A stretch of DNA of 64,000 nt, taken from the IMG/VR virus record IMGVR_UViG_3300042472_000628, positions 1 to 64,000 of that record; one strand, written 5' to 3'. The notes beneath the pieces are model-generated. The model was not told the origin of the DNA. It ran no database searches and saw nothing but the letters and a program-made list of their open reading frames with translations. This document shows, in pieces, positions 4,535 through 32,617 of the stretch (position 1 is its first letter; each line of letters starts with the position of its first letter). The translations under genes were made by a program, and so were the position numbers. Origin of the DNA: a virus.

Positions 4535-5842
4535 ATGCAAAAGCTAACTTACGATTCTCCTAGAGAATCAATATTGAACGCAGCACTTATGGGTGTTGAG
4601 TTTGAATTCTATTCTAATCTCGATCTAGAAGAAACCAGAAAATCTTTGGTTAAACTTCTAGATCGAAAAATTAGGTTAGAAGATAAGGCCCACTCTGAAT
4701 TTCAGCCTTCCGCTGAAGAATTCAAAATGGAACCCGATATGTCTGGTGGTAAAGGTTTAATTGAATTGGTTACTGGACCAATACCTTACAGAAATGCCAG
4801 AATTATGGTTATTAAGATGCTTAAATGGATATCGGAAAATGGATATACAACTGATAGAGCATCTATTCACATCAACTTATCGTTCGATAAACAATTTCTA
4901 CAAGATAAAGATCTTCTTTCTAAAATGAATGTTCTTAAATTCATTTTAGAGTTTGATGAAAAACAAGTTTACAAGTTTTTCCCAAACAGAGAAAAATCTG
5001 CTTATGCTAAAAGTATTAAGTGGGTAATGCCAAAATGGGAAGCATTCCATTTTGATGCTAATCAAATTGCTTCAAATAATTTTAAATTTGCTGACACTAA
5101 ATATTATGGGATTAACTTCTCTAAAAAAGAGAAAAACTATCTTGAATTTAGATATTTAGGTGGAGCAGATTATGAAAAGAAGGTAGATGATATTTTATAT
5201 CTAACTGAAAGATTTTTAGCTCAAATGTGGAAGTCATGTAATGACTCTAGATTTACTCCTGAAAATAAAATAGAATTACAAAGAATCTTAAATAAAAATA
5301 AGCCGGTTTCTGATATGCTTAGAGATTATACAAAAGTCTCAGAACATTGGCCTAAAATCAAAATATTAGCTGATCTACAAGATAATCCTATTATCATAAA
5401 GGTACATTGGGACAGATTTAAAATGAGAGTAATGGATTTGTTAGTAAACGGATCTATGACTGAGGGTACTATCAATTATGATTCAGATTATGGTGCAGTT
5501 CAAGTAAAGGACGGTAAATTCCCAACTGTTTATATGCTAGAGAATTTTGAATTTATCGATTGTGAACTTGCCGGTAATTTAACTAATTGTAGTTTTTACA
5601 ATTGTGAAGTTTCAGGTTCTGCAGTTATGTGGGGAAGTTTATATCAAGGTACTAAAATAAAAGACTCTAAGGTTGAGTCTAGTTATACTCACGGAAGTTG
5701 TGAATTAACCAACTGTTATGTTGCTGGAAGGGACACTATGTTTAAAGGCAAAATGATAGGTGGAATATTCAGAGAAGGTTTCATAAGTGATTCAGCTAGA
5801 TTTGAAGAAACCGAAGTAGTAGTAAGTAAAAAAATAAAATAA
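4535..5842 (+). CDS. Amidoligase-like domain fused to beta-helix repeats
   Basis: 435 residues in two parts. The N-terminal 300 residues start with GVEFEFYSN (about 20-28), followed by GKGLIELVTGPIPY and RASIHINLSF. These correspond to the G(V/I)E(I/F)EF, E(L/I)V(S/T)xP and hHhH strands of the Amidoligase_2 / glutamine-synthetase-fold COOH-NH2 ligase family, enzymes that join carboxylates to amines. The last 110 residues are pentapeptide-like or right-handed beta-helix sequence (FEFIDCELAGNLTNCSFYNC). No clear ATP-binding Lys cluster was identified. It lies between the S1-like and neck-like genes. A virion-protein or cell-surface modifying role is possible; the enzymatic assignment is moderate, the substrate unknown. 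Confidence 0.5.
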   Translation: MQKLTYDSPRESILNAALMGVEFEFYSNLDLEETRKSLVKLLDRKIRLEDKAHSEFQPSAEEFKMEPDMSGGKGLIELVTGPIPYRNARIMVIKMLKWISENGYTTDRASIHINLSFDKQFLQDKDLLSKMNVLKFILEFDEKQVYKFFPNREKSAYAKSIKWVMPKWEAFHFDANQIASNNFKFADTKYYGINFSKKEKNYLEFRYLGGADYEKKVDDILYLTERFLAQMWKSCNDSRFTPENKIELQRILNKNKPVSDMLRDYTKVSEHWPKIKILADLQDNPIIIKVHWDRFKMRVMDLLVNGSMTEGTINYDSDYGAVQVKDGKFPTVYMLENFEFIDCELAGNLTNCSFYNCEVSGSAVMWGSLYQGTKIKDSKVESSYTHGSCELTNCYVAGRDTMFKGKMIGGIFREGFISDSARFEETEVVVSKKIK

Positions 5843-5846
5843 TAAA

Positions 5847-6689
5847 ATGGGTCAAATTATAAGCGGTTCAAATGATGATTTATTAACTGGAAGAAGTTTC
5901 AGTAATAATTGTTTAAATGCATTTCTAGATGAAATAGCAGACGAAATTACAGGAGCTTGTATGGTTCCGGTTAACTTACCACAAAAAGAGATTATTAATA
6001 TAATTAAGAGATCTAAAAAATGGTTCTATAAGAAATACGAATACGCTGTAAAAGAAAATCTTTATCATATTCCAAATGATGTATTTTCTTCTGAATATTT
6101 TAAAAATACTAGAACACTTAATTTACCAGGCCCTGGCAATGACGGCGGAGGTGGAGTTTATTCTGTATATGGATTATACGATTTAGCTTCAGGATTCGGT
6201 GGTCAAGGTGGTGGATTGGATCTTAGATTCCAATCTGGTGGTGACTTCTCTATGGAAAGAATGTTATTTAGAGGTATGTATGAAGGTTCTGGTATGGCTG
6301 AGGCTGCAGAAGAATTACAATACTATGTATTGAATGCATCTATGGCAGACCTTTCTAGACAGATCTTAGAGAATCCTATTTCTTATGCATATTCACAATT
6401 AACTGGAGAACTTAAATTTTTAGGTGATACACCTAAAGGTGATGTGATCTTAGAAATTTACGAAACAATTCCAGATTGTGCTTTATATGACGATGAAATT
6501 TTCTTTAGATATGTTAGTGCTAAAATCAAACAATCATTAGGTACTAAGTTAGGTATTTTTAAATTTGCTTTACCAGGTAATGTTGATTTTGATTATGATG
6601 CAATCAAATCTATGGGAGATGATGAACTTACAGCTATTGAAGAAGAAATCAAAGGAGATGAAGGTGTGGACTGGATGATGCATACCTAA
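5847..6689 (+). CDS. gp13-like neck (head completion) protein
   Basis: 280 residues. The order of elements resembles T4 gp13. There is an N-terminal helical part with LPQKEIINIIKRSKKWFYKK followed by a Tyr-rich strand, a Gly-rich middle (about 95-135), then a TGELKFLGDTPKGDVILEIY segment. It finishes with a helix and an acidic tail containing DELTAIEEEIKG, comparable to the end of gp13 family members. No single motif proves it, so the call is by overall pattern. gp13-type proteins seal the filled head and receive the tail. It is followed at 21 bases by gp25, in keeping with a head/tail joining block. Confidence 0.45.
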   Translation: MGQIISGSNDDLLTGRSFSNNCLNAFLDEIADEITGACMVPVNLPQKEIINIIKRSKKWFYKKYEYAVKENLYHIPNDVFSSEYFKNTRTLNLPGPGNDGGGGVYSVYGLYDLASGFGGQGGGLDLRFQSGGDFSMERMLFRGMYEGSGMAEAAEELQYYVLNASMADLSRQILENPISYAYSQLTGELKFLGDTPKGDVILEIYETIPDCALYDDEIFFRYVSAKIKQSLGTKLGIFKFALPGNVDFDYDAIKSMGDDELTAIEEEIKGDEGVDWMMHT

Positions 6690-7083: not shown

Positions 7084-8913
7084 ATGGCTGAATTAAAATT
7101 TTTAAGTAGAATTAGAACAGGTGCAGCTGACATCAGACAAGATGCTCAGACGTATATTTCTAGGGTCTACAGTAGAGCTAATACTCTATTTACGGTGGCT
7201 TCACCGTTTGCCCAAATAATTTCAGTATTATCTGAAATATCTGATTTAATTATGTTCTACATTGAGGATTCAGTGGTAGAACAAAACATATATACTGCAC
7301 AACAGGCAGAATCTATATATGGTATGTCTAGATTAACTGGTCATGATGCTACTAGAGGATTTGCTGCAACTGGTGAGATTGAATTTAGATGGAAACCTGG
7401 AGCAGATATGTCAAAGATTGCTGGAAATACATTGAATATACAATCTAGAGCTCAACTTAAATTTGATGCTAATGGATTAATGTATACCCTTTTAAATTCT
7501 AATGATAGTTTTAAATTAGAAAAAACAAATTATACATCTATTAAAACTGCTATCATTCAAGGTAAGTTTGAATCACAAACGTTAACTTCTAGTGGTGAAA
7601 AATTACAATCATTTAGTATTAATACTGGTGGTATAACGGATCATACTAAAATAAGTGTTAGTGTTAATGGAGAACTTTGGACAAAACATGAATCTTTATA
7701 TGATTTAGGTTCTGAAGAAAAAGCATATTTAATTAAGACTGGAATTAGTGGAGGTTTAGACCTTTATTTTGGTAATGGAAGTTTTGGAATGGTGCCACCA
7801 AATGGTGCTACAATCGAAATCGAATATGTTAAGCATGCTGGAATGACAGGTAATTTAGATGATTCACCTGATTTAACTATTAAATGGGATGCAGTTGGTA
7901 CTGATTCAAATGGTAATGAACATGATCTAAATCAATTTTTAGATGTAACTATTACTTCATCGCCTAAAATGGGTGGTGATAGAGAAGATACTAGGTTTAC
8001 AAAGATTATGACACCAATGGCAAGTAAATCTTTTGTATTGGCAACTCCTGATAATTATGAATACTTCTTATCAAGATATAATATGTTCTCTTATATAGAT
8101 GCATATAACACAACTGATGACCAATATTTGGACGATGATAACGTTATTTATATTTTCGCAGTTCCTGATATTAAAAAGAAACTTGCAAAAAACCAAGATT
8201 ATTTTAATATTCCACAATCTGAAATGTTTTTAGATCAAGGTGAATATGATGCAATGCATAAAGTATTAGAAGATAGCGGACAACAAATGGTAACTACTGA
8301 AGTTGTTTTTGTTAAACCTCAAGTAAGATATTATAGTATGGATATTAACATTAGATATTTTGAAGGTTACACCAGAGATGAGATATACAGCGCTGTTAGA
8401 GCTAAAGTTTCTGAATATTTATTGAATATTACACGAAGAGATAAATTACCTAAATCTGATATAGTTTATATTTTGGAGGAAGTTGCAGGAATTGATGCGG
8501 TGAATGTTAAATTTATTTCTGAAACCGAAGAAACTGCACTAAGAAATGGTTACTTTGAATCGGTTAACGTGAGCGTTGTACCACAAGAACCAGTGACATT
8601 AGAAACTGTGGGTAATGGTAAACAAAAATACGTTTTCTTTAAAAGAATCGAAAATGTACAAACCGTTCCAGTTAAATATTCAATGGATATACCAGATACT
8701 GTAAAAGGTTTGGATCAATGGGGTGATATTATAATGGAGAAAGAAGAAGTTGCTGTATTTAGAGGTGGATGGTTAGACAGAGATGGCGATGTTATCGAAG
8801 ATGATGTATTAATGAATGCTGAAGCTGCAGTTAGTATTAACTTTGAAGCAGAACCTGTACCTAGAACAATTTACACTAGAATACAAGCTGGAAATAGAAA
8901 AGCACTTAAGTAA
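7084..8913 (+). CDS. Baseplate wedge protein gp6-like (baseplate J)
   Basis: 609 residues (T4 gp6: 660). The N-terminus has the helical Baseplate_J pattern, with IEDSVVEQNIYTAQQAESIY around residues 61-80 and ARGF/SRLTGHDATRGFAA after it. Later parts include a YFGNGSFGMVPPNGA loop (about 228-242), typical of gpJ/gp6 proteins, and a C-terminal region with YSMDINIRYFEGYTRDEI and a DKLPKSDIVYILEEVAGIDAV segment. gp6 dimers form the inner ring that ties wedges together. It follows gp25 by 16 bases and overlaps the next start (TAATG). Confidence 0.85.
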   Translation: MAELKFLSRIRTGAADIRQDAQTYISRVYSRANTLFTVASPFAQIISVLSEISDLIMFYIEDSVVEQNIYTAQQAESIYGMSRLTGHDATRGFAATGEIEFRWKPGADMSKIAGNTLNIQSRAQLKFDANGLMYTLLNSNDSFKLEKTNYTSIKTAIIQGKFESQTLTSSGEKLQSFSINTGGITDHTKISVSVNGELWTKHESLYDLGSEEKAYLIKTGISGGLDLYFGNGSFGMVPPNGATIEIEYVKHAGMTGNLDDSPDLTIKWDAVGTDSNGNEHDLNQFLDVTITSSPKMGGDREDTRFTKIMTPMASKSFVLATPDNYEYFLSRYNMFSYIDAYNTTDDQYLDDDNVIYIFAVPDIKKKLAKNQDYFNIPQSEMFLDQGEYDAMHKVLEDSGQQMVTTEVVFVKPQVRYYSMDINIRYFEGYTRDEIYSAVRAKVSEYLLNITRRDKLPKSDIVYILEEVAGIDAVNVKFISETEETALRNGYFESVNVSVVPQEPVTLETVGNGKQKYVFFKRIENVQTVPVKYSMDIPDTVKGLDQWGDIIMEKEEVAVFRGGWLDRDGDVIEDDVLMNAEAAVSINFEAEPVPRTIYTRIQAGNRKALK

Positions 8914-25650: not shown

Positions 25651-27312
25651 ATGGCAATTAACATTCAAGAGATATTACACCCAAGCGATTCGGACTCTAT
25701 AAAGTTTGAGAAAATCAATTATAACTTTGATCAAATTTTAGCGAATGGCGGTGGGCCAATTGGACCAAAGGGTCAAAAAGGTGATCAAGGTCTACAAGGA
25801 AGTACTGGTCAAAAAGGTCAAAAAGGTGAAACAGGACCTATTGGTTTAAAAGGTGTTTCCGGAGCTACTGATAGTCCATGGTACAAAGTTAATGTCGATA
25901 CAAATAATGATGGTCAAAATGAAGTTAGTATTTTAAAACCTAAAATTGGATCAGATTCAAATATGCCTATTATCTGGTTAGGTGATGATGCATTTCAAGA
26001 AGATGTAACAAATGGTGATATTTCTACTAATGCTAGATTATCAATTGCCAAAGATTCTACCTTTGAAAATTATATTAAATTATATCATGCTATCGATAAA
26101 GCACTAGTAATGACAAGTATTACTAGTACAACGACTGAGGGTATATTTTCTAAATTTAATTGGCAAAATGCATTTGGTAGTTCAAATATAGAATTTGGAG
26201 CTACTACAGATAAAATTACATTCTTTGCAAACAATTATTCATTTTCAGCTAGCGGTGTTGGAATCAATTTAAAGTCAATTGGTAATACAAATATCAAACT
26301 TAGTAGCACTGGTTTTGGAATTTTAGATGTAGACATGAATGCTGAATTTAAGGGTTATTTAAGATTGCCTGCTGGTACTACAGGTCAAAGACCTTCTGTA
26401 CCTCAATTAGGTATGATTAGATTTAATATTGATTTAGATATTGTTGAAGCTTATTATAATAATGGTGGAACTCCTGAGTGGAGAGAATTATGTACTGATT
26501 GTGGAACACCAGTCGGTGATAGTATCGGTATTTCAGGTGGAGATATAAATGCTAATGCTGATGGATCTCCAGCAACTGATACAATTGAAATTATTGGAGG
26601 TGATATTCATGCTAATGTCGATGGTTCACCATATTCTGCAGTAAGCGCAGCATTAAGTGCAGTTGGATCTACTTCACTTACAGCAACTTATAATATTCCA
26701 ACAACACTTTATTTAAATTATACAATTGCACCTACATCATCTGATCCAGGATCTTCTAACGTATTTGTTAATACTCCTGGATTAACTATCACTCCTGAAC
26801 CTTCTAGTAATAGAATAAAAGTTGTGACAAGTGTTGATGTTGTTGGTAAAACTTGGAACGTAACAGTTAAACATCCATTAGATTCGAATGTTATGGTAGT
26901 TTGGAATATATCATTAGTAAGTGCTGCATCACCAACTGCAACACCAGTTACACCAACTGCTACTCCAGTCCCAGCGCCTACTGCAACACCTAGTCCAGTC
27001 GCAACTGCAACAATAACTAATGTATTACATGTTGTTGATGATACAGTAAGTGTTGTTTTCAACTTAAGTGATACTGTTAATTGTTCGGCAGTTACAGTTC
27101 AATACAGTTCTAATCCAACTGGACCATGGAATGGTAATACATCAGGTTGTTCATCACCTCGTGCAGTTGAGATTTATGGTGCATGTGGAACCACATACTA
27201 CTTTAGAGTTGTTGAAACTAGAAGTGGTTTAACAGATGTTATATCTAATGTATATGAATTCACATATCCAGATTGTGACTATGGAGGTGGAGGAACAGGA
27301 TCTATTGTATAA
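25651..27312 (+). CDS. Collagen-like tail fibre protein
   Basis: 553 residues. An N-terminal module (EILHPSDSDSIKFEKINYNF) shared with the 11953 gene leads into a collagen-like Gly-X-Y tract at about 33-72 (GPIGPKGQKGDQGLQGSTGQ and continuing), expected to form a short triple helix. Then come beta-rich trimer-like sequence, a repeat pair near 285-325 (GGDINANADGSP / GGDIHANVDGSP), a PTATP linker (about 430-450) and a C-terminal FN3-like domain with YYFRVVETRSG. It starts one base after the giant gene ends. Host-surface binding role inferred. Confidence 0.65.
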   Translation: MAINIQEILHPSDSDSIKFEKINYNFDQILANGGGPIGPKGQKGDQGLQGSTGQKGQKGETGPIGLKGVSGATDSPWYKVNVDTNNDGQNEVSILKPKIGSDSNMPIIWLGDDAFQEDVTNGDISTNARLSIAKDSTFENYIKLYHAIDKALVMTSITSTTTEGIFSKFNWQNAFGSSNIEFGATTDKITFFANNYSFSASGVGINLKSIGNTNIKLSSTGFGILDVDMNAEFKGYLRLPAGTTGQRPSVPQLGMIRFNIDLDIVEAYYNNGGTPEWRELCTDCGTPVGDSIGISGGDINANADGSPATDTIEIIGGDIHANVDGSPYSAVSAALSAVGSTSLTATYNIPTTLYLNYTIAPTSSDPGSSNVFVNTPGLTITPEPSSNRIKVVTSVDVVGKTWNVTVKHPLDSNVMVVWNISLVSAASPTATPVTPTATPVPAPTATPSPVATATITNVLHVVDDTVSVVFNLSDTVNCSAVTVQYSSNPTGPWNGNTSGCSSPRAVEIYGACGTTYYFRVVETRSGLTDVISNVYEFTYPDCDYGGGGTGSIV

Positions 27313-27337: not shown

Positions 27338-27907
27338 ATGGCAGCTAACGATTATACAAGAAGTGTGAGTATTACACCACAAAGTTCATCTTATTCATGG
27401 AGTACACCTCCAAGTTGGATCACTATAATACAATTTGGCGCTAGCAACGATTGGGTAATTACTATTGCTGCAAATACAGGTGCTTACAGAAGTGCAACTA
27501 TTTCTGTTACACATAGTAATGGAGTTACAACAGATAGTATAAATATTATCCAAGAAGGCGTTTCTTCTGGTGGTGGAGCAGGTATACCAACTGCAACTCC
27601 AATTGTACCAACTGCAACACCAGCTGCAACTAGTTCAGGTGGAGCAGGTATACCGACTGCTACTCCAATCCCAGCTCCGACTGCAACGCCACCTCCAACT
27701 AGTTCAGGTGGAGCAGGAATAACAGCATATACATATTCTGTTTTCGGTACTGATTTTTATAGTTTCGGTAACGTATCATATATCAATCAAGCCGGTGAAT
27801 ATAGATCATCGTCTGTTGGTTATAATCAAACTATTTCGATTTGTGCTAGGTCAATTATAAGTCAAAGTGGTTGTAATGTAACGAACACATATAGCATGTG
27901 TTTCTAA
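27338..27907 (+). CDS. Short BACON-domain tail adhesin
   Basis: 189 residues. Residues 1-75 form a BACON-type domain: SYSWSTPPSWITI, then DWVITIAANTGAYRSATISV and DSINIIQEG. These are the W..I...N...R.a.i.v...I.Q pattern of this Bacteroidota carbohydrate-associated fold, also known from crAss-like phage tails. Two Gly-Ala-Gly-Ile/PTATP linkers follow (about 77-130), then a 55-residue Ser/Tyr/Cys-rich tip. It is a close paralogue of the first domain of the next gene. Probable accessory fibre tip or glycan-binding decoration (inference). Confidence 0.65.
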   Translation: MAANDYTRSVSITPQSSSYSWSTPPSWITIIQFGASNDWVITIAANTGAYRSATISVTHSNGVTTDSINIIQEGVSSGGGAGIPTATPIVPTATPAATSSGGAGIPTATPIPAPTATPPPTSSGGAGITAYTYSVFGTDFYSFGNVSYINQAGEYRSSSVGYNQTISICARSIISQSGCNVTNTYSMCF

Positions 27908-27948: not shown

Positions 27949-29163
27949 ATGGCAGCTAACGATTACATAAGAACGGTAAATATCACACCATTGAGTACTA
28001 GTTACTCTTGGGATACACCACCGAGTTGGATCACTATTAATAGAATAGGTACATCTGATGATTGGACTATAACTATTGCCGCTAATAGTGGTATAGCTAG
28101 AAATGCTACGTTAACCGTTAGACATGCTAATACAACTACAGTTGATACAATTAATGTTTCTCAAAGTGCTGGAATTGTAGTACCAACTGCAACACCAATC
28201 GTACCAACTGCAACACCAATTCCACCGACACCAACACCAACTTCACCAGCAGGTGCAGGTTACTCTTTATCTTTTGTTGACTCTAGTTTTACTATAGATG
28301 ATTATACTTTTGGTGGAAATACTTATGTAGACTTAAATTATAATATTACTGGTGCTACAACTCCACCGACATTAGTACAAAAATCAGTATATCTGGATTG
28401 GACAAATCGTTCTGGACCAACTGGAGGTGTAGGTACAATTAGATTATATAGTTTATTACCGCCTGCAGAATTACCAGTTAGTATGCAAATGTTGCCTATT
28501 TTTACGCTTGCACATCCATTAGATAGTGGTGTAACTGCTTCTATTCCTGGTTATATAATTCAAGCACAAGATGAATTAATTATTAGAAATCCAGATCCAA
28601 CATCAGTTCCTAGTCCAACAACACCACCATCTACTGGCGGCGGTGGCGGCGGTGGCGGATGTTTAATTGGAGGAACTAAAATTACTTTATCTGATGGTTC
28701 ATTAATAAACATTGAAAATCTTAATGTTGGTCAAAAATTAATGGCGACTGTTTTTGGAAATATGCCAAACACTGATGATGTTACAACGTTAAAATCTTGG
28801 ACAGAAATTAATCCTTCTATATCAAGTACTGAATCTGAATTAGTTTCAATTAAAGCATATGAAGTTTCTAAAACTTATAATTTCAATAACGGTTTAATAG
28901 TATCTTCAGGAGATCATTTACATATAGTTAAAGTTAATGATTCAACATGGACTGTATTAGAGGCTGAAAATATTAAAATTGGTGACAAGTTCATGACAAT
29001 AAAAGGTGAAGTACTTATAGGAACAATAACAGAAGATCATAACATCACAACTGTTTACAAATTAGATGTTGAACCTAATGACACTTATATTGCTAACGGA
29101 GTGGTTACACATAACTTGAAAGATGAAACACTAAATCCAGTCGAGGATGTTAGACAACAATAA
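27949..29163 (+). CDS. BACON adhesin with C-terminal Hint (intein-like) domain
   Basis: 404 residues. The parts in order are: BACON domain (1-75, near-duplicate of the previous gene), a PTATP linker (about 78-100), a beta domain (about 105-220), a PSPTTPPST plus Gly8 linker, and a Hint domain from Cys238 to Asn389. Hint signs are CLIGGTKITLSDGS at the start, LNVGQKLMA, VSSGDHLHIV (block-B-like), a NDTYIANG strand and VVTHN at the end. The residue after Asn389 is Leu, not Cys/Ser/Thr, and only 15 residues follow. This fits a bacterial intein-like (BIL) self-cleaving domain better than a splicing intein. Autocleavage would free or activate the adhesin end. Confidence 0.75.
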   Translation: MAANDYIRTVNITPLSTSYSWDTPPSWITINRIGTSDDWTITIAANSGIARNATLTVRHANTTTVDTINVSQSAGIVVPTATPIVPTATPIPPTPTPTSPAGAGYSLSFVDSSFTIDDYTFGGNTYVDLNYNITGATTPPTLVQKSVYLDWTNRSGPTGGVGTIRLYSLLPPAELPVSMQMLPIFTLAHPLDSGVTASIPGYIIQAQDELIIRNPDPTSVPSPTTPPSTGGGGGGGGCLIGGTKITLSDGSLINIENLNVGQKLMATVFGNMPNTDDVTTLKSWTEINPSISSTESELVSIKAYEVSKTYNFNNGLIVSSGDHLHIVKVNDSTWTVLEAENIKIGDKFMTIKGEVLIGTITEDHNITTVYKLDVEPNDTYIANGVVTHNLKDETLNPVEDVRQQ

Positions 29164-32065: not shown

Positions 32066-32617
32066 ATGGTTCTTAATAGTAGAAATAATGCATTTGATTT
32101 TAGATTTCCAAGAGGATTTATACCTGCTGAAGTATCTGAAAAATATAAGAAGTATCTTAATAAGGTACCAGGTGGTTTATTATCAGAACCTGTTGATTTT
32201 GTAAATTACAGTATTCAAGGTATTAATATTCCTGGAATTTCATTTGAACCAGTTACACAAGAAGATAATGATGGAACTAAGAGATACCATCGAGGCGCAA
32301 TGCCAATTCAAAATACAATTAATAGAGAATTTACAGTAACCATGCAGTTATTAGATGGATTTATTAATTATTGGATTATGATGGATACTTTATTGTATTA
32401 TTATGCAAGGTCAACTAAACAAGCATATATTGATCCGTTAACTTTGAGAATACTTGATGCTGAAGGTGCATCTGTTGCATACATGGAATTTACTGATTGT
32501 ATTATGAATTCTATTAATGAATTAAGTTTGAATTTTGCAGAGAACGTTGCATCATTTAGTACATTTGAAGTTACGTTCTTCTATAATAAATTAAACCTTA
32601 GATTAGAGGTTGAATAA
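32066..32617 (+). CDS. Tail tube-like protein (gp19/gp54 fold)
   Basis: 183 residues, close in size to T4 gp19 (163). The pattern fits the tube fold: an early strand VNYSIQGINIPGI (about 47-59), REFTVTMQLLDGFINYWIMM (about 88-107), and a last strand FSTFEVTFFYNKLNL matching the F.VTf.Y ending of tube proteins. It could be the main tube subunit or a tube initiator (gp48/gp54-like). The strand order, not a residue-level motif, supports the call. Confidence 0.5.
   Translation: MVLNSRNNAFDFRFPRGFIPAEVSEKYKKYLNKVPGGLLSEPVDFVNYSIQGINIPGISFEPVTQEDNDGTKRYHRGAMPIQNTINREFTVTMQLLDGFINYWIMMDTLLYYYARSTKQAYIDPLTLRILDAEGASVAYMEFTDCIMNSINELSLNFAENVASFSTFEVTFFYNKLNLRLEVE

Follow-up and report, generated by a model that had tools for sequence, protein, structure and literature searches.

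A Hint domain of predicted A-type BIL class at the end of a probable phage tail adhesin, and a near-constant lysine in the short tails behind such domains

A tail gene of an IMG/VR virus encodes a protein that ends in a Hint domain and a short tail with one lysine, and nearly every tail behind related C-terminal Hint domains was found to contain a lysine as well. We propose that the protein, probably an adhesin, is made as a precursor, in which a thioester at Gly237 would be resolved by Lys391 and the Hint domain would be removed via Asn389. From the sequence, a predicted fold and the analogy with a ciliate protein, we put the probability of this reading at about one half. Unless a locus is named, positions refer to the window, i.e., the 64,000-nucleotide stretch that was analysed (positions 1 to 64,000 of record IMGVR_UViG_3300042472_000628).

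The adhesin gene and its surroundings

The gene is located at 27949-29163 on the + strand, as are all of its features given below, and encodes 404 amino acids with a calculated mass of 43.0 kDa. The limits of the open reading frame, the Gly8-Cys238 junction, the 152-residue Hint domain, the THN at residues 387-389 and the Leu that follows, all named in the preliminary description, were verified in the sequence. From the N-terminus, the protein consists of a BACON-like module (residues 1-75, 27949-28173; Pfam BACON 19.2 bits, cut-off 25), a low-complexity PTATP/PTPTP linker with predicted disorder (residues 76-103, 28174-28257), a middle beta domain (residues about 104-206, 28258-28566), a Gly8 linker (residues 230-237, 28636-28659), the Hint domain (residues 238-389, 28660-29115) and the C-extein tail LKDETLNPVEDVRQQ of 15 amino acids, which starts at Leu390 and is predicted to be disordered (29116-29160). 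The full-chain model (pLDDT 68.5) contained a BACON-like beta module (1-70, low confidence), a disordered linker, a beta domain, a disordered Gly8 linker, the Hint domain and a disordered tail. Since this full-length model was poor in the BACON-like part, we make no claim about the fold there. The pLDDT of the middle beta domain was about 70-82 with a single dip near 46, and this domain would likely be the receptor-facing part.

In a blastp comparison with 172 ORFs that have a full-length Hint, from loci L167-L332, the BACON-like module recurred, at 67-81% over stretches of 72-75 aa, in Hint-carrying ORFs of other phages; of the 28 rows obtained, five are duplicates of L162-L166. An upstream paralogue (27338-27907, + strand, 189 aa) has the BACON-like module and the PTATP linker without a Hint domain; it matches the adhesin at 64% over residues 1-101, and its Pfam BACON score of 21.8 bits is also below the cut-off. 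L165 likewise has a Hint-less paralogue of the adhesin head and linker (5269-5964), and no such paralogue ORF of at least 100 aa was found at the corresponding place in L162 and L166.

The adhesin gene lies within the tail gene block of a 165,454-base virus record, together with genes for a baseplate wedge protein (7084-8913), a collagen-like tail fibre (25651-27312) and a tail tube (32066-32617). The term adhesin is our inference from the domain make-up and this gene position. One Hint domain of this kind was found in the entire record. The baseplate wedge protein is nearest to those of phages of Bacteroidota and of huge phages, and Hint relatives occur on contigs binned with Crocinitomicaceae and Flavobacterium; the host is therefore likely to belong to the Bacteroidota, as judged from these similarities.

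Fold and class of the Hint domain

The domain matched PHROG 38766 (virion structural protein) over residues 236-390 with E=1.4e-7 and exceeded the cut-off of NCBIfam intein_Cterm (16.6 bits, cut-off 15.6), and a profile of 30 relatives matched solved BIL and intein chains at E values down to 2e-18. In a Pfam search with the single sequence, every match was below the cut-off. The domain was modelled by AlphaFold2 with 30 relatives, giving a pLDDT of 91.4 and a pTM of 0.84. The PHROG match, the intein_Cterm match, the profile of relatives and this model agree on the Hint domain put forward in the preliminary description. Foldseek with the model returned 52 chains at E<=0.001, and the best 50 of the 52 were all BIL, intein or hedgehog chains. 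The top VIA match was 6y75_B, BUBL BIL2 of Tetrahymena (Z 20.6, rmsd 1.6, 137 residues). Further matches were the Ssp DnaB inteins (Z 18.5), the Clostridium thermocellum BIL 2lwy (Z 18.1) and hedgehog 1at0 (Z 17.4), a ranking which means little among the lower rows because rows within about 1 Z are tied. As modelled, the domain firmly adopts the horseshoe Hint fold.

By sequence and predicted fold, the domain would be an A-type BIL domain rather than a mobile intein. Directly after the extein stands Cys238 (28660-28662), invariant in A4 and A8 and the expected nucleophile of the N-S acyl shift, and Gly237 is the expected thioester carbonyl. The domain ends in His388-Asn389 (29110-29115), where C-terminal cleavage via Asn cyclisation is expected, and the +1 residue Leu390 is not Cys, Ser or Thr. 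The block B motif Thr-x-x-His is present as a Ser variant, Ser320-Gly-Asp-His323 (28906-28917), the relatives having mostly Thr. Asp373 (29065-29067), whose position was read from the sequence, is presumably the acidic residue of block F known from the intein literature. A-type BILs occur in hypervariable parts of non-conserved proteins according to PMC7765530, and here two Hint types were found at one site on near-identical backbones. A mobile intein would be expected at a conserved site of a conserved protein with Cys, Ser or Thr at +1; this domain stands at the C-terminus after a 5-9-residue Gly linker, with unrelated tails and Leu390 at +1. A BUBL BIL2-like ligase would be expected to have a lysine in the C-extein, as provided by Lys391. 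No ubiquitin-like domain was found on either side of the Hint domain by Pfam up to E=1, and the C-extein is 15 residues long.

Loss of the key Hint residues in relatives had been named in the preliminary description as the sign that would speak against it. Over 50 clusters at 60% identity, with the L009 inteins left out, the block B His was present in 50 of 50, Thr or Ser three positions earlier in 49 and the terminal His-Asn in 48; Cys1 was also present in all 50, but it had been selected for. The expectation of BIL-type chemistry, resting on Cys1, the block B His, His-Asn, the Gly at -1 and the following Leu, thus stands as a prediction from the sequence. The accompanying statement that splicing is unlikely was too strong, because, according to PMC4031507, a +1 nucleophile is not required for splicing by A-type BILs, and because the nearly constant C-extein lysine offers another acceptor. 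PMC7765530 states that A-type BILs cannot ligate, contrary to PMC4031507. The +1 residues of the C-terminal Hint domains are highly varied; ordinary splicing is conceivable for some members, as Cys, Ser or Thr was found there in 11 of the 63 clusters.

Like known A-type BILs, e.g., the C. thermocellum BIL, the phage domain combines the Hint fold with Cys1, a block B His, a terminal His-Asn and no +1 nucleophile, and forms a variable module in a non-conserved surface-type protein. Unlike them, it sits at the extreme C-terminus of tail proteins behind a poly-Gly linker, with a C-extein of 1-25 residues and a near-invariant lysine.

Exchange of the Hint module

The same adhesin was found on five contigs, three of which carry one protein; all five bear a Hint domain, and an empty site was found in none. 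Identity between the window and L162 is 97% for the tail tube, 96% for g687, 97% for g270 and 94% for the fibre. In the adhesin, the N-terminal parts are 77% and the Hint domains 25% identical. One Hint type is shared by the window and L165 (63%) and the other by L162 and L166 (81%), with dN/dS values of 0.39 and 0.19 within the two types. Cys1, Ser/Thr-x-x-His and His-Asn are intact in all four, while the Gly linker varies from 5 to 9 residues and the tail sequences are unrelated. Since the backbones are near-identical, the Hint domains differ this much and the replacement is again a Hint domain with intact residues, the module has been exchanged as a unit, under purifying selection, and apparently kept functional. 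Replacement by another catalytically intact Hint domain would hardly be expected of a dead one.

Spread among phage tail proteins

A search of viral_contigs with the single Hint sequence gave no relative, so profiles were required. With profiles and patterns, Hint relatives were found in many unrelated phages of IMG/VR. At least 120 contigs have a Gly4-Cys followed by a block A pattern; of the 120 loci listed, a Hint profile derived in part from these loci recognised 109 and missed 11, and a profile made without them recognised 74. The Hint domain was C-terminal in 56 of the 120, near the N-terminus in 36, elsewhere in 10 and truncated in 7, with 11 unmatched. In a sample of carriers (a Pfam scan of 10 proteins and a PHROG scan of 7, not every one giving a tail match) we found a tail fibre J protein (phrog_31, E=1e-286, Hint near the N-terminus), a tail assembly protein (phrog_32), a tail protein (phrog_2048), and proteins with Phage_Tail_Tip, PASTA and FnIII matches. 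In L043, L044, L090, L097 and others, tail fibre J-like proteins carry the Hint domain close to their N-terminus, with Gly-rich stretches on both sides and a lysine in the Gly-rich part after His-Asn; the PHROG match was run for L097. In L062 and L081 the domain lies at about residue 80-123, inside the Gly-rich middle of the ORF, and L062 matches phrog_32.

Collagen-like and giant tail proteins of Erwinia/Dickeya jumbo phages and of phage NCTB end in the same Hint subfamily. The collagen-like tail proteins of PHROG 38766 (Yoloswag gp102, AD1 gp108, Y3 gp110) have the tail TDIVA(Q/K)AEK(T), with lysine as in the window protein, whereas their N-terminal part is a different one and Thr is at +1. 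BN7874_132 and BN7874_136 of phage NCTB resemble the window protein in GGGGGGC or GGGGC, Hint domain, His-Asn and a lysine tail of 7 residues; they differ in their giant or collagen-like N-terminal parts, and the Hint domain is about 30% identical. The architecture is thus widespread, with Hint domains in phage tail fibres, tail tip J, tail assembly proteins and collagen-like proteins, and the "new twist" of the preliminary description undersold an arrangement common in phage tail proteins. Since some database records bear "intein domain" or "Hint" notes, annotators had noticed the domain already. The open-access full-text literature that was searched gave neither a description of Hint or BIL domains in phage tail proteins nor a lysine rule for such tails.

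Two other Hint types, compared by tblastn with the phage collection, matched mostly true inteins in enzymes. The inteins of phage terminases, RecA/UvsX-like proteins and helicases share the fold and blocks of the phage Hint domain; unlike it, they sit inside conserved enzymes and have a +1 nucleophile as a rule.

Lysine in the C-extein tails

Lys391 (29119-29121) is the sole lysine of the adhesin tail. In all sets together, a lysine was found in 61 of 63 tail clusters, whereas C-termini of the same lengths from 283 other ORFs would give 25.7, the tails being clustered at 60% identity; the rule had been noticed by eye in sets that are included in this total. At the level of unique tails (from 197 C-terminal domains), 97 of 97 contained a lysine, and 80 contained exactly one. 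In 2000 runs in which the residues were permuted among the tails, 65.6 tails on average and at most 74 had a lysine, compared with the 97 observed. All 30 tails of six residues or fewer had one (8.6 expected), and the four one-residue tails were all K. Arginine was present in 12 of the 63 tails, in none of the 63 without a lysine, and was not enriched. The distance from the Asn to the first lysine ranged from 1 to 14. Because of this variable distance, and because arginine never replaces lysine, a primary amine fits better than a charge or a binding motif.

The discovery set (30/30, 9.6 expected) and the next set (17/17, 9.1 expected) were both seen before the rule was written. In a preset block-G scan, lysine was found in 6 of 7 usable clusters (4.2 expected, P=0.1). 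In a set from bacterial genomes it was found in 8 of 9 (about 2.5 expected, more exactly 2.46; P=1.5e-4), where a small bias toward such tails is possible as profile A4, with which this set was collected, contained up to eight tail columns. The two tails without lysine are that of L447 in the preset scan (QLHQHDYN, Gln at +1), a true exception, and that of L500 in the bacterial set (CNPMTTDLGL, Cys at +1). Left out of the counts were L001-L003 (copies of the window), L009 (true inteins), Hint domains in truncated ORFs or without Cys1 or His-Asn, tails of more than 25 residues, and clusters within 60% of earlier ones.

An earlier form of the rule, K or R in the last two residues (26/30 compared with 45/201 in the discovery set), failed a preset test on new clusters (8/17 compared with 14/54, P=0.09) and was dropped, and "lysine anywhere" was used afterwards. 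For internal and N-terminal Hint domains, a lysine was present within the first 25 C-extein residues in 18 of 18, which weighs little over so long a span; J proteins have lysines in such stretches anyway. A very divergent C-terminal class missed by the profile (L056, L064, L071, L098 and L131; CVALES...HHN) has lysine in five of five tails, which were not counted, and appears by eye to have lost the block B His.

Taken from the tail sequences, the near-constant lysine suggests that the Hint domain joins the tail protein to a lysine rather than merely releasing it. The lysine could also serve something else, such as docking.

Proposed reaction and alternative explanations

BUBL BIL2 splices via an isopeptide bond to a C-extein lysine, according to its authors, and is able to pass ubl4 to other substrates (PMC8616854). 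This protein of Tetrahymena (BUBL1 BIL2; 6tmm, 6y75) is the best fold match of the phage domain, and the lysine acceptor reported there has its counterpart in the conserved lysine of the phage tails. The residue before Cys1 is Gly in the phage protein, and BUBL has an RGG motif (PMC9200820). While BUBL joins ubiquitin-like domains in a ciliate, the phage partner would be a short disordered tail. Because the phage protein has the same elements, i.e., a Gly before Cys1, a Hint domain with His-Asn and a C-extein lysine, we propose that the A-type BIL domain forms a thioester at Gly237-Cys238. The amine that would attack this thioester is most likely that of the Lys391 side chain (the epsilon-amine), as reported for BUBL BIL2. 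The Hint domain would be set free by cyclisation of Asn389, leaving a mature adhesin (residues 1-237, 24.7 kDa) that would bear the tail peptide on its C-terminal glycine, 26.4 kDa in all. In-chain attack with Asn cyclisation afterwards would give this product, and attack within or between fibre chains would both be allowed; if water won instead, the mature adhesin would end in a bare Gly8. We infer the activity, the order of steps, the lysine as acceptor and the fate of the released Hint domain. Against the lysine mechanism, the benefit of trading a 152-aa domain for a tail of 15 aa or 1 aa is not evident, and block B of the window protein has Ser for Thr.

In plain BIL autocleavage, the thioester would be hydrolysed, Asn389 would cyclise, and the adhesin and the Hint domain would separate, with the tail lysine otherwise employed. 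Cleavage products dominate for A-type BILs according to PMC4031507, and a Gly-rich linker would make a flexible, exposed scissile bond. Since this course leaves unexplained a near-invariant lysine, the lack of an arginine substitute and one-residue tails that are always K, we consider it doubtful. The same source proposes for A-type BIL splicing that the alpha-amine attacks: the tail N-terminus freed by Asn cyclisation would resolve the thioester, forming an ordinary Gly237-Leu390 peptide bond. Each tail does have at least one residue (the minimum was 2 in the first set and 1 later), but no lysine is predicted by this route and the +1 residues vary widely, so that it appears improbable.

It has also to be considered that the Hint domain is inert, i.e., a C-terminal folding or trimerisation domain, similar to an intramolecular chaperone, that stays on the fibre. 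Its C-terminal place on collagen-like and other fibre proteins would suit such a role, as would the Hint-only ORFs without Cys1 that adjoin collagen-Hint genes in NCTB-like phages. Catalytic residues that survive replacement of the whole domain and are near-invariant over the 50 clusters make this quite improbable. If the domain were a selfish mini-intein, or what remains of one, lodged in Gly-rich linkers in which an insertion is harmless, this would account for like domains that are flanked by Gly-rich stretches in tail protein J and in tail assembly proteins. Such an origin is highly improbable, as there is no endonuclease, no conserved insertion site and, in most members, no +1 nucleophile, the domain is C-terminal with few residues behind it, the tails follow the lysine rule, and none of the five close relatives (three being one protein) has an empty site.

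The lysine mechanism may extend beyond the window protein. Phage tails might possess a self-contained isopeptide ligase that needs no ATP, in which the Hint domain activates the C-terminal Gly of an adhesin as a thioester for transfer to a lysine. This lysine could belong to the protein's own tail, to a neighbouring fibre subunit, or to a different protein of the virion or the host, and the transfer would join tail parts covalently at assembly or adsorption; the module would be swapped among adhesins and also occur on bacterial surface proteins. We put this extension forward tentatively, as a possibility. Other amines, including the host amines proposed in the preliminary description, are possible but unsupported acceptors.

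The natural role of BIL domains has been a standing question since their first description, and many phages have such domains in their tail machinery. What should surprise a specialist is the lysine rule, together with what it probably means. One lysine in a stub of down to one residue leads to a definite chemical prediction. If it is true, phage tails contain built-in ligases, tail fibres are maturing proteins whose real C-terminus differs from the gene-encoded one, and protein ligation would gain useful tools in these compact natural Hint modules, for which a single residue serves as acceptor. If the prediction fails, the tail lysine still needs an explanation.

Further Hint-like sequences

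In NCTB-like phages the collagen-Hint gene is immediately followed by a stand-alone Hint-like ORF (L004 2723-3184, L010 767-1231, L022 751-1215) that measures about 155 aa and has no Cys1. By eye these ORFs lack the block B His, and they end in HN plus 2-3 residues (RV, KIS, KVD); possibly they are inactive partners in a mixed fibre. C-terminal Gly-Cys Hint-like domains without a terminal His-Asn (B-type-like) were seen in L061, L089, L101 and L110. A Hint relative around 6001-6474 of L031 / L038 contains in-frame TAG stops, possibly from a phage with a reassigned stop codon. The bacterial proteins of L480, L483, L485, L492 and L496 end in a Hint domain followed by stubs of the HN-K or HN-KG type, and several have FecR-like or secreted-protein features by eye. 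Two adjoining genes on the - strand of L138 (4102-5124 and 5280-5924) each end in a different Hint domain, with the tails GFGK and KF.
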